From contig DVHJ01000027.1 in NCBI GenBank assembly GCA_018712145.1, forward strand, positions 1 to 64,000: a DNA stretch of 64,000 nt, given 5' to 3'. Below are positions 12,458-15,947 of the stretch, piece by piece. The translations under genes and the position numbers were made by a program. Source of the DNA: Candidatus Faecousia faecigallinarum (lineage in GTDB: Bacteria; Bacillota; Clostridia; Oscillospirales; Oscillospiraceae). The notes beneath the pieces were generated by a model. The model made no database searches and was not told where the DNA came from. It saw only the letters and a list, made by a program, of their open reading frames with translations. How positions within the stretch are numbered: position 1 is the stretch's first letter; the number at the start of each line of letters is the position of its first letter.

Positions 12458-12725
12458 GATTGTTTACCTCCTTGCCGTGTGTCGATTTGGGGTTGCGCGC
12501 CGGCAGACGCGCTTGCCAGTTTGGCGGCAATCTCCCGATGCCGCGCCGAACCGGCCGGGTGCACCGTAAGAACCGGCGCTGTGTACGGTTTATTCCCGTG
12601 CCGTTTGTTCCCGTGAATCCTGTCCGCCTCCCTCCTGCGCTCGCCTCCTTTGGGGCCTTGGTTGTCTCCCGCAAGGGTATGCTTTTCCGCCCGCGGTGGC
12701 ATACTAATTCCACCCCAACCAGGCC

Positions 12726-12751
12726 TTTCGCAGAGTTAGCCACTCTGCGAA
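12726..12751. repeat. 26-bp palindromic repeat, copy 1
   Basis: tttcgcagagt-tagcc-actctgcgaa; exact reverse complement at 14564-14589. Confidence 0.9.
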
Positions 12752-12776
12752 GGTTGAATATACCGTTACAGGGTTT

Positions 12777-12805
12777 ATATTACCGCAATCCCAAAATTTT
12801 TGCAA
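12777..12805 (-). promoter_or_regulatory. Predicted sigma-A-type promoter for the surface protein
   Basis: Minus strand TTGCAA-N17-TAATAT. Confidence 0.6.
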
Positions 12806-12981
12806 GGGTTTTCCAGAAATTTTTGAAAAGAATCTGGATTGTTTTTGGAGAAGCGCTGGTAAATGCTGCCAATTCCCGCATTTCCGGCGATACTTTTCCT
12901 GGCTGCGCAGTCGCCGGCGCAGTCAGCAGGGGGGATGCTCCTGCCATATTCCATCACAAAAAAATATAGGGAGGCGCGACA

Positions 12982-14076
12982 ATGGCGAAAGGAGAAAACA
13001 TTTTTCGACGCAAGGATGGCCGCTGGGAGGCACGATACCGCAAGGGCTACACCCCGGCCGGCAAAATCCGCTACGGCTACTGCTACGGCAAAACCTACGC
13101 GGAAGCAAAGGAGAAGGTGAACCGGTGCAAGGCGGCGCTGGCCGCCGGATGCCCGCCACCGGCCAATGGCCGGAACCGGTTCTCCTGGTACTGCGGGCAG
13201 TGGTTGGAGAGCAAACGCGGGACGGTGAAGGAATCCACCTATATCAAATATATTTCCGTGGTGGATAAGTATATTCGCCCCCGGCTGGGGAGCCTGTATC
13301 CCCTGGCCATCACCTCTGCCGCAGTGGGGAAGTTTTCCGCTGGGCTGGCCGATACCCTTTCTCCCAAGACAGTGAAAGATATTCTGGCGGTTCTCCGGGC
13401 AATCGTCCAATATACCGCCAAACAGTTCCCCGGCATATTTCCGGCGGTAGATATCCCCGCCCCCCGGCAGACCCGGGGGCAGATACGGGTACTCTCCCCG
13501 GAAGAGCAAGCTAAACTGGTCAATTACCTATCCCAGGAGATGGATTGCTGTAAATTTGGCGTGCTGCTGGCCCTGCGCACCGGTATGCGCATTGGCGAGC
13601 TGTGCGCCCTGACCTGGGCGGACATTTCCCTGACGGACAATACCGTCTATATCCGAAGTACCATGCAGCGCATCCGCAATCTGGGGGAAACCGGCGGGAA
13701 AACCCGGGTGATTACCGGGCCGCCCAAGAGCGAGGCAGCCGTCCGGGTAATCCCCATCACGGAGCAGACCGCAGCGCTGTGCAGCCGGATGGCGGCCACC
13801 GGGTATGTCCTTACCGGTGGAGAACAGTATATGGAGCCCCGGACGCTGCAATACCGGCTGAAGCGCTATACCCAGGACTGCGGCCTGGAGGGGGTACATT
13901 TCCACACCCTGCGCCACACCTTTGCCACCCGGTGCGTGGAGGCTGGCTTTGAGCTGAAATCCCTCAGCGAGATTTTGGGCCATTCCACTGTTGCGGTGAC
14001 CATGAACCGGTATGTCCATGCTTCTCTGGACCTAAAGCGGGACAACATGCGCAAGCTGGCGGCAGTGGGCCTGTAA
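12982..14076 (+). CDS. Tyrosine recombinase / phage-type integrase with N-terminal arm-binding domain
   Basis: NIFRRKDGRWEARYRKGYTPAGKIRYGYCYGKTY; LALRTGMRIGELCALTWADI; HTLRHTFATRCVEAG; LGHSTVAVTMNRYVHA. Confidence 0.93.
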   Translation: MAKGENIFRRKDGRWEARYRKGYTPAGKIRYGYCYGKTYAEAKEKVNRCKAALAAGCPPPANGRNRFSWYCGQWLESKRGTVKESTYIKYISVVDKYIRPRLGSLYPLAITSAAVGKFSAGLADTLSPKTVKDILAVLRAIVQYTAKQFPGIFPAVDIPAPRQTRGQIRVLSPEEQAKLVNYLSQEMDCCKFGVLLALRTGMRIGELCALTWADISLTDNTVYIRSTMQRIRNLGETGGKTRVITGPPKSEAAVRVIPITEQTAALCSRMAATGYVLTGGEQYMEPRTLQYRLKRYTQDCGLEGVHFHTLRHTFATRCVEAGFELKSLSEILGHSTVAVTMNRYVHASLDLKRDNMRKLAAVGL

Positions 14077-14276
14077 TTTTTCCGCCGTCAGCCGGAGGTG
14101 TCAACCCCGGCCGGCGAACTCCCAAGGCGGGGCTGCCTCATGGTGGGGCAGCCCTGCAATCCTGTGCAGAAAACTGGCCGCCGTTCACAGGCATTGAGGC
14201 GCAACGGCATGTGGAAAGCTTCCGGTTGCCTGGAAATGTGTCCTTGCAACCGCAGAAGCCTTCCTGTTTTTAGCCT

Positions 14277-14460
14277 GTCATTGCGAGGAGCGCAGCGACG
14301 TGGCAATCCGTTCTCCTCGCAGTAATGCAAAATGGAAAGCAGCACCTAAGGCAAATCCGCAACTTTTCCGAATTCGCCCAAGCAGCAGCCAACTTGCTAG
14401 GCTCTCCTGCGGGGAAGCGGATTGCCACACCAGTGACACCGGTCACTGGTTCGCAATGAC
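14277..14460. repeat. MITE-like noncoding element with terminal inverted repeats
   Basis: Left GTCATTGCGAggagcgcagcgacgTGGCAATCCG; right CGGATTGCCAcaccagtgacaccggtcactggtTCGCAATGAC. Confidence 0.7.
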
Positions 14461-14563
14461 GTGCAAAAGGCTGGTGGGCGTTTGCGGGATGTACTGCCAG
14501 GGAGAAAATTGGGAGGTGTCCGCGGGAGATGGGCGCTGCCGCAAGGCTGGCAGAGCGGTGCCT

Positions 14564-14589
14564 TTCGCAGAGTGGCTAACTCTGCGAAA
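14564..14589. repeat. 26-bp palindromic repeat, copy 2 (inverted relative to copy 1)
   Basis: ttcgcagagtggctaactctgcgaaa; followed by T6 on plus, so it could also act as a terminator. Confidence 0.9.
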
Positions 14590-14661
14590 TTTTTTGACCT
14601 CCGGCGCCAAAATGTCTGGCTTTCCTTGCAAAGATTAAGAAAAAATTAAGCGGTATGCATA

Positions 14662-14744: not shown

Positions 14745-15947
14745 ATGGAACGCTGGATTGATGTGTTAAGTCTGGTGTTGAAGCTATTCACCTTATATAC
14801 TGCGGTCACCGGTTTATTTTTTCTACTACCCCAGAAGTCCTACCGGCGGTGCGATCCCAAGACCCGCTTTGCCGTGCTCATCCCCGCCCGCAATGAGGAA
14901 GCGGTTATCGGCCACACCGTGGCGCAGTTTCTGAAACAGACATACCCCGAATCCCTGTACGACCTGTACATCATCCCCAATAACTGTACCGACGGCACTG
15001 CCGAGGCGGCCCGCCGGGCCGGGGCCAAGGTGATGGTTTGCACCGTTCCCGTGCGCACCAAGGGCCAGGTGCTCAAATGGGCCTTCCAGCAGCTGGAACC
15101 TATGGCCTACGATGCCTACTGCATCTTTGATGCGGATAACCTGGTGGATCCGAATTTCCTGGCCCGGATGAACGACGCCTTTTGTGCCGGTGCCAGACTG
15201 GCCAAAGGCCTGCAAAAGGCCTCTAATCCAGACGAAACCTGGATTACCGGCTGCTATGACCTGTATGTGGAAAACTTTAATCTCCTCTATAGCCGTCCCC
15301 GGGGACGGCTGGGCTTGTCCGCCAAGCTCATTGGCACCGGCTTTGCCGTCAGCCGCAGCCTGCTAAACGAGGCCGGCGGCTTCACCACCGTCACCCTCAC
15401 CGAGGATACGGAGTTTGCGGTCCAATGCGCCCTGCTGGGAGAGAAGGTGTGGTGGGTGCCGGAGGCCGTCACCTATGATGAAGAACCCCTGAGCTTCCGT
15501 GTATCCATGGTGCAGCGCCGCCGGTGGTCCAGCGGCGTTATGCAGACCTTTCAAGTATACTTGCCCCGGCTGCTGAAAGCTATCTTCACCGGCGGCCGGC
15601 CCCTGCTGTGCTTTGACATCACCATGCTCATTGCCGGCCCTGCCATGCAGGTCCTGGGCCTGATTCCCGGCGTGTACGTCCTCTGGCAGACCATCGCCGC
15701 CGGCAACTGGCTGGCCCTGGGGATCAGTGTAGTCTCCTTCTGGGTGGGCATGATGGCCACCGCCCTGTTCTTGGCCGTGGTGGGCAAGCGCCCAGTGGCC
15801 AAAATGTGGAAGACGATTTTGCTCTATCCCCTGTTCACCGCCTCCTGGTATCCCCTGCACATCCTGTCGGTGTTCAGAAAGGCTCGGGTGTGGAAGCCCA
15901 TTGCCCATCAGGGCTCCAAGCCCATTGCGCAGCTGTCCGTCCGCTGA
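14745..15947 (+). CDS. Membrane glycosyltransferase family 2
   Basis: FAVLIPARNEEAVIG, CIFDADNLVDPNFL, TEDTEFAVQCALLG, QRRRWSSG. Confidence 0.9.
   Translation: MERWIDVLSLVLKLFTLYTAVTGLFFLLPQKSYRRCDPKTRFAVLIPARNEEAVIGHTVAQFLKQTYPESLYDLYIIPNNCTDGTAEAARRAGAKVMVCTVPVRTKGQVLKWAFQQLEPMAYDAYCIFDADNLVDPNFLARMNDAFCAGARLAKGLQKASNPDETWITGCYDLYVENFNLLYSRPRGRLGLSAKLIGTGFAVSRSLLNEAGGFTTVTLTEDTEFAVQCALLGEKVWWVPEAVTYDEEPLSFRVSMVQRRRWSSGVMQTFQVYLPRLLKAIFTGGRPLLCFDITMLIAGPAMQVLGLIPGVYVLWQTIAAGNWLALGISVVSFWVGMMATALFLAVVGKRPVAKMWKTILLYPLFTASWYPLHILSVFRKARVWKPIAHQGSKPIAQLSVR

Follow-up and report, generated by a model that had tools for sequence, protein, structure and literature searches.

The window analysed here is a 64,000-nucleotide stretch of DNA in which a gene for a tyrosine recombinase is bracketed by two 26-bp inverted repeats, with a large surface-protein gene on the left and a glycosyltransferase gene on the right (Table 1). 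The right repeat is the exact reverse complement of the left, as is the 21-bp recombination site that it contains, which consists of 7-bp arms (CGCAGAG and CTCTGCG) flanking a 7-bp centre, TTAGCCA. Together the repeats delimit a segment of 1.86 kb, with 1837 bp between site starts, and the source contig is unbroken at either site. An exact inverted pair around the recombinase had been reported in the initial annotation, and both copies are indeed present. Searches for further copies found two matches to the 26-mer in the window with up to three mismatches, where shuffled sequences give an expectation of 0.00, and in the 1.9-Mb genome the pattern TTCGCAGAGT-N5-ACTCTGCGAA occurs solely at the two cassette sites. 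The 26-mer was also considered as a dispersed repeat, a reading that was rejected because the genome holds these two copies only.

Table 1. Coordinates of the segment, its internal features, and its neighbours in the window.
Feature	Position	Strand	Comment
Surface protein, 1390 aa	8285-12457	-	Listeria-Bacteroides (Flg_new) repeats
Predicted 313-nt leader of surface-protein transcript	12458-12770	-	Contains site hairpin; AAGGAGGT ribosome-binding site
Left inverted repeat, 26 bp (TTTCGCAGAGTTAGCCACTCTGCGAA)	12726-12751	+	21-bp recombination site at 12729-12749
Outward promoter TTGCAA-N17-TAATAT	12777-12805	-	-10 element 27 bp inside left site
Upstream paired arm-type repeats (putative) GCAGTCG / GCAGTCA	12907-12925	+	12-bp period
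Tyrosine recombinase, 364 aa	12982-14076	+	Pfam Phage_integrase (PF00589), E 5e-26
Downstream paired arm-type repeats (putative) GCCGTCA / GGTGTCA	14084-14103	+	13-bp period, just past recombinase stop codon
MITE-like dispersed repeat	14242-14487		Own contigs C29, C79, C82, 75-81% identity
Right site hairpin followed by T6	14563-14595	+	Terminator-like score
Right inverted repeat, 26 bp	14564-14589	-	21-bp recombination site at 14566-14586
Promoter-like TTGCAA-N17-TATTAT, outside segment	14662-14690	+	Consensus match only
Glycosyltransferase family 2 gene	14745-15947	+	Neighbour on right side

Each 26-bp copy folds into a hairpin, with a stem of 10-11 bp and a loop of 5 nt, and both can therefore be mistaken for terminators. 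The left copy has no T-run. The hairpin and T6 at the right copy are terminator-like for the recombinase transcript and, after an inversion, would be so for transcription from the flipped promoter.

The product of the enclosed gene had been called a tyrosine recombinase, and the Pfam match and an intact set of catalytic residues (R203, K249, H308, R311, H334, and Y344, all invariant across 60 homologues) bear this out; the catalytic set and the fold place it in the tyrosine recombinase superfamily. The nearest solved structure is the Tn1549 integrase, both by sequence (E 3e-17) and by fold (Foldseek E 3e-16), and the fold of lambda Int was also matched; the fold search matched the solved integrases but did not single out the N-terminal domain. 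This domain is predicted to contain a three-stranded sheet plus a helix. The sites are inverted and lie close on both sides of the recombinase, with no other comparably sized gene inside, an arrangement lacking the direct att sites and the transfer or excision genes of conjugative transposons and integrative elements.

The outward promoter, which the initial annotation had described as lying inside the left copy and directed across the site at the surface protein, is found there in that direction. It scores 8.3 bits with the matrix used here, below most of its relatives. The length of the predicted leader in Table 1 follows from a transcription start placed by the -10 element. No convincing promoter was found between the left site and the surface gene, the one match overlapping the gene start. 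The large product of this gene was proposed earlier to be a surface protein, in keeping with a start that resembles a signal peptide and with its repeats; no LPXTG or SLH anchor was detected in it by eye or with Pfam. On the other side, the promoter-like sequence outside the segment is probably the glycosyltransferase's own promoter. PADLOC returned nothing for the surface protein, the recombinase, or the glycosyltransferase, and an Rfam search of the window also found nothing.

Paired sites and the recombinase family in other genomes

A large genome collection was scanned for the pattern CGCAGAGT-N5-ACTCTGCG, which gave at least 118 stretches. Among the matches listed, these are mostly from Lachnospiraceae, Oscillospiraceae, and other Clostridia. 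All pairs 1085-1621 bp apart enclose a homologue of the recombinase, on either strand, and pairs of 572 bp or less have no homologue inside, two of them having one adjacent. Two pairs are intermediate: L102 (762 bp) encloses a recombinase fragment and L064 (921 bp) none. When the recombinase homologues were taken as the starting point, 67 of 88 were bracketed by an inverted match scoring at least 14, and a control in which left and right flanks of different loci were paired gave 4 matches out of 150. About a quarter of the homologues have no detectable inverted pair, in part because contigs end there.

The layout inside the segment is conserved. In family cassettes, an outward sigma-70 promoter sits just inside the site upstream of the recombinase, many having the form TTGACA-17-TATAAT; the distance between the -10 element and the site is most commonly about 28 bp. 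Outward promoter scores lie above the 95% shuffle level in 72% of 65 cassettes, compared with 0% for the inward direction. The short pairs (0.2-0.6 kb) are mostly mini-switches, with a promoter between the sites and no recombinase; among promoter-only invertons of this same design, 82% are above the 95% shuffle level. With matched inverted sites bracketing an outward promoter, the window segment itself has the make-up of an inverton.

In 44 of 66 cassettes, the stretch from promoter to start codon contains paired repeats of the type GC(C/A)GTCA with a 12-bp period; about 50 of 66 have them immediately past the stop codon, with a period of 12 or 13 bp (shuffled expectation for paired GTCA repeats, 0.15). 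The predicted N-terminal sheet and helix, the kinship with Tn1549 and lambda integrases, and the pairing of the repeats make it the most economical reading that these are probable arm-type sites of a two-handed integrase, held by its N-terminal domain. Terminator-like hairpins between the recombinase and the right site are moderately enriched (29/66 versus 12 in shuffled sequences). Typical segments among relatives are about 1350-1530 bp long; the window segment is longer than most, largely because the MITE-like repeat lies 3' of the recombinase. This repeat has ends around CATTGCGAGGAGCGCAGCGACGTGGCAATCC, and many genomes of the genus have copies.

Related cassettes are also found on ICE-like and plasmid DNA, the latter in more distant bacteria. 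A near-identical segment with a flip cassette is present in four Clostridia genomes of different families (L215, L216, L232, and L233; about 4140-6690 in L215), and a segment near-identical to this group occurs on a human faecal contig labelled as phage (L278). In the first four, a 262-aa gene matching erm(B) begins about 350 bp past the segment's right end, and the promoter faces away from the side of this erm(B)-like gene in all five copies. Megaplasmids of Enterococcus raffinosus and E. gilvus carry distant homologues of the recombinase, with 34-37% identity (L267-L272). Inverted repeats bracket most of these, their arms being quite unlike those of the window (CTTGGT...), and the homologues adjoin accessory Sec (secA2/secY2) and WxL surface operons, with one orientation in all strains compared.

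An alternative is a small mobile element, with the recombinase as its transposase or integrase, the 26-mers as terminal repeats, and an orientation fixed at insertion. The nearest solved relative belongs to a conjugative transposon, the family is scattered (61 of 396 genomes of the order at E<=1e-60) in varied contexts, and one cassette rides a segment common to Clostridia of different families. A single integration, however, yields direct attL and attR and not an inverted pair whose centres are identical. The same pairs are also found with nothing but a promoter in the 0.2-0.6 kb that separates them, and a plain insertion element has no need of a conserved outward promoter at a conserved spacing. 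We consider this account very unlikely, and spread by some route is compatible with inversion.

A reading in which the recombinase chiefly serves other invertons of the genome in trans, with the window segment as a degenerate or locked switch, is also highly improbable. Homologues are found in 9 of the 12 genomes or records that have short invertons, the window promoter is weaker than most of the others, and the segment contains a MITE-like repeat; but both sites are perfect, the catalytic residues are intact, and, since the genome has no further copy of the site, no target in trans with these arms is visible.

Matched centres in the site family

Across genomes the arms of the site recur and the central N5 varies by locus. 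The relationship between the two centres of a pair was examined in an unbiased test, in which partners were chosen by their arms alone, with up to three mismatches and within 2.5 kb. Among the matches listed, the N5 was exactly reverse-complementary in 48 of 48 inverted pairs, at 46 loci, and no inverted pair with an unrelated N5 was present among the arms-only partners. Three direct pairs were found in the same test and matches, all of them in one tandem array. Column-by-column comparison of 65 cassettes gave a within-pair identity of 0.97-1.00 over the central 11 bp, a value that is partly built in because these cassettes were selected through their inverted match; between pairs, identity at N5 was only 0.25-0.33. 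Site similarity in the 65 cassettes fades beyond about 25 bp.

Strand exchange by tyrosine recombinases needs a homologous overlap region, and terminators make no such demand. Inverted sites with constant arms and identical centres thus fit strand exchange by a tyrosine recombinase, and the reverse-complementary five central bases are best read as the mark of its crossover region. To judge from these sequences, matched centres would imply that strand exchange between both sites has taken place over evolutionary time. Arm variants (CGCAGAG, CGTAGAG, CGCTTAT, CGTAGAA, and others) follow the drift of the recombinase: similarity of recombinases is correlated with similarity of arms (Mantel r 0.37, P 0.001), and the correlation with similarity of centres is not significant (Mantel r 0.06, P 0.07).

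The initial annotation had cautioned that the second copy could simply be a terminator; its T6 and terminator-like score uphold the resemblance, and a plain terminator was rejected as the explanation on the strength of the spacer rule. In its general form, this reading takes the 26-mers as terminator hairpins flanking a recombinase gene, with nothing inverting, and it is the least probable of the alternatives: the copies do form stable hairpins, and the right one with its T6 scores as an intrinsic terminator, but loops of terminators need no reverse complementarity within pairs that goes with variation between loci, the left copy has no T-run, T-rich tracts beyond the site are not a family feature (9-10 of 66 cassettes on either side), and arms diverge with the recombinase where centres do not clearly do so.

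Partners were not found for all matches to the pattern. Among the matches listed, 34 outside Clostridia have none and were used as a control; partners were likewise sought, and none found, for one match from the window's own family (G331) and for three on viral contigs. In other loci there are more than two sites. L018 has sites at 4, 1457, and 1501, L099 has two right-hand sites 45 bp apart, and L103 has three direct copies 45 bp apart. These tandem sites share one centre, as if site duplication also occurs.

Outputs, orientation, and a proposed switch

Of the 57 cassettes with both sides readable, 53 have an outward-pointing neighbour on one side or both. Outward neighbours in other genomes include proteins with SLH, Flg_new, BspA-type LRR, cohesin, or dockerin domains, or with an N-methylation motif, as well as S26 signal peptidases, a sugar transferase, a sigma factor, and TetR-like regulators. 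Several have no known domain; those that could be assigned to a family are often surface or secretion genes. S26 signal-peptidase operons have related cassettes before them, in both orientations, at L202, L207, L208, L209, and L212, which come from several genera. At L009, L022, and L034, the outward neighbour is a related gene of 542-561 aa (59-91% identical). At L034 this gene encodes a large serine recombinase, and one recombinase may therefore be switching another.

Comparisons between related loci bear on whether segments have changed orientation. L287 and L288, from one genus, have recombinases that are 76% identical and cassettes on opposite sides of their targets, which are 965-997 aa long and 55% identical, with homology that runs up to the site. 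Comparable reversals beside related operons are seen for L204/L205, and for L202/L208 versus L207/L212. Each of these reversals compares different species, with a clear match confined to the target side, so that independent insertion might also account for them. A further line of indirect evidence comes from assemblies. Of 101 Clostridia sites among the matches listed, 10 are no more than 200 bp from a contig end, where 2.1 would be expected (simulated P 1.5e-5), and 0 of 34 control sites are so placed; four contig-end sites are within 7 bp, and two contig ends of one bin share a centre. Mixed orientations would be expected to break an assembly, and a repeat of 21-25 bp alone should not.

Orientation differences were also sought among near-identical copies, and none were found. 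The four ICE-like copies in different Clostridia (L215, L216, L232, and L233) have one orientation, as do three related loci in genus g139; plasmids of E. raffinosus, with four copies at one locus and two at another, are uniform at each. This uniformity would count against frequent flipping. In 60 genomes of the window's genus, no conserved flank of the window locus was found; the recombinase region and the MITE-like repeat accounted for the matches.

Taken together, these findings, which draw on about a hundred relatives, make it very probable that the window contains a self-contained phase-variation cassette, a promoter segment that can invert and that carries its own recombinase. The central proposal of the initial annotation, that such a segment controls the surface protein, gains support from the matched centres, the enclosed recombinase, and the conserved outward promoter, and from the opposite orientations and assembly breaks in other genomes. 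Sites, arm repeats, promoter, and a recombinase with intact catalytic residues, in a layout conserved among relatives, would provide the parts for inversion in this organism. In the proposed mechanism, the recombinase encoded within the segment would bind the 7-bp arms of both inverted 21-bp sites, probably helped by its N-terminal domain gripping the arm-type GC(C/A)GTCA repeats that flank the gene, and strand exchange within the 7-bp centre would invert the 1.86-kb segment. In the assembled orientation, the promoter would read left across the site into the surface-protein gene, which may depend on it for expression (ON). In the inverted orientation, it would point right into the site hairpin and T6, leaving the surface protein with no obvious promoter (OFF). 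The initial annotation also had inversion aim the promoter at the glycosyltransferase; with a hairpin and T6 in its path, and a separate promoter-like site before that gene, inversion would probably leave the gene unactivated. The expected effect is then surface protein ON or OFF, rather than a choice between two genes.

A broader reading is, in our judgement, evenly poised. It holds that the cassettes form a previously uncharacterised, widespread family of portable promoter-flip elements, in which an arm-site-using integrase of the Tn1549/lambda class has been turned into a self-inverting switch, with shared arms, a free but internally matched centre that is possibly each switch's address, promoter-only mini-switches maybe served in trans, and mainly surface outputs, across Clostridia and, more distantly, enterococci. 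Gut bacteria probably use switches of this family to turn surface genes on and off by flipping a segment. Much less is understood of phase variation in gut Clostridia than in Bacteroides or C. difficile. If the reading is correct, the site rule (CGYAGAG, a 7-bp matched centre, and an inverted partner) and the recombinase family would allow switches and their targets to be predicted from assemblies without reads, and surface proteins, pili-like and signal-peptidase operons, and glycan genes would be indicated as switchable. It would also follow that a transposon-type integrase can serve as a stable on/off switch, and the question is raised of whether, in a cell with several switches, it is the matched centre that prevents recombination between them.

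Comparison with known systems

RecV of Clostridioides difficile is a small protein that is not known to have an arm-binding domain. Its switches (cwpV/Cdi1, flg/Cdi4, and others) resemble the cassette in combining a tyrosine recombinase with short inverted repeats, and, likewise in Clostridia, they make a large cell-wall protein or a surface structure phase-variable (PMC8890394, PMC5903667, PMC2784873). RecV acts in trans on several switches of 154-230 bp that have no internal recombinase (PMC5903667), and conservation among its inverted repeats is no more than modest (PMC8890394). In contrast, the recombinase described here lies inside the segment, unlike the small switch and external recombinase of RecV or FimB/FimE, and there are strict arms around a centre that is free but matched, with paired arm-type repeats in addition. 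The FimB and FimE recombinase genes lie outside the fimS switch of E. coli. This switch is similar in that a tyrosine recombinase flips a promoter before surface-structure genes (PMC9993118); it is 314 bp long and holds only the promoter (PMC5903667).

The Tn1549 and Tn916-type integrases excise and integrate, whereas here inverted sites with identical centres surround the gene and an outward promoter is conserved. These integrases have an N-terminal arm-binding domain. They provide the nearest solved structure (PDB 6EMY, 6EMZ, 6EN0) and share a short crossover region.

Recombinase genes inside an inverted segment have precedents. One is the Hin/hix H-segment of Salmonella (PMC5903667), which differs in using a serine recombinase. 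Another, predicted in Providencia stuartii, is a putative fimbrial inverton that measures 844 bp and has imperfect repeats of 14 bp; no family was described for it (PMC5903667). Flipped promoters, and recombinases within a flipped segment (Hin and the predicted Providencia case), are already known (PMC5903667). In a limited search of the open-access literature, we found no description of a self-enclosed cassette of the integrase type that combines paired arm-type repeats with a matched-centre rule for its sites.

Invertons of hCom2, a defined gut community, were described in a read-based survey. According to that study, inverton group 139 comprises 33 invertons, 32 of them in Clostridia (Microbiome 2025;13:71, PMC11892184), and of all groups it is the one linked most strongly to one tyrosine-type invertase group, group 35; orientation shifts were seen at read level (PMC11892184). 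In an example from Clostridium sp. D5, about 230 bp separate repeats of 26 bp, and this repeat length and spacing resemble those of the short invertons found here; the main text differs in giving no site code, recombinase inside the segment, or arm-type repeats (PMC11892184). Compared by description rather than by repeat motif, group 139 and invertase group 35 may be the same family as the one described here.
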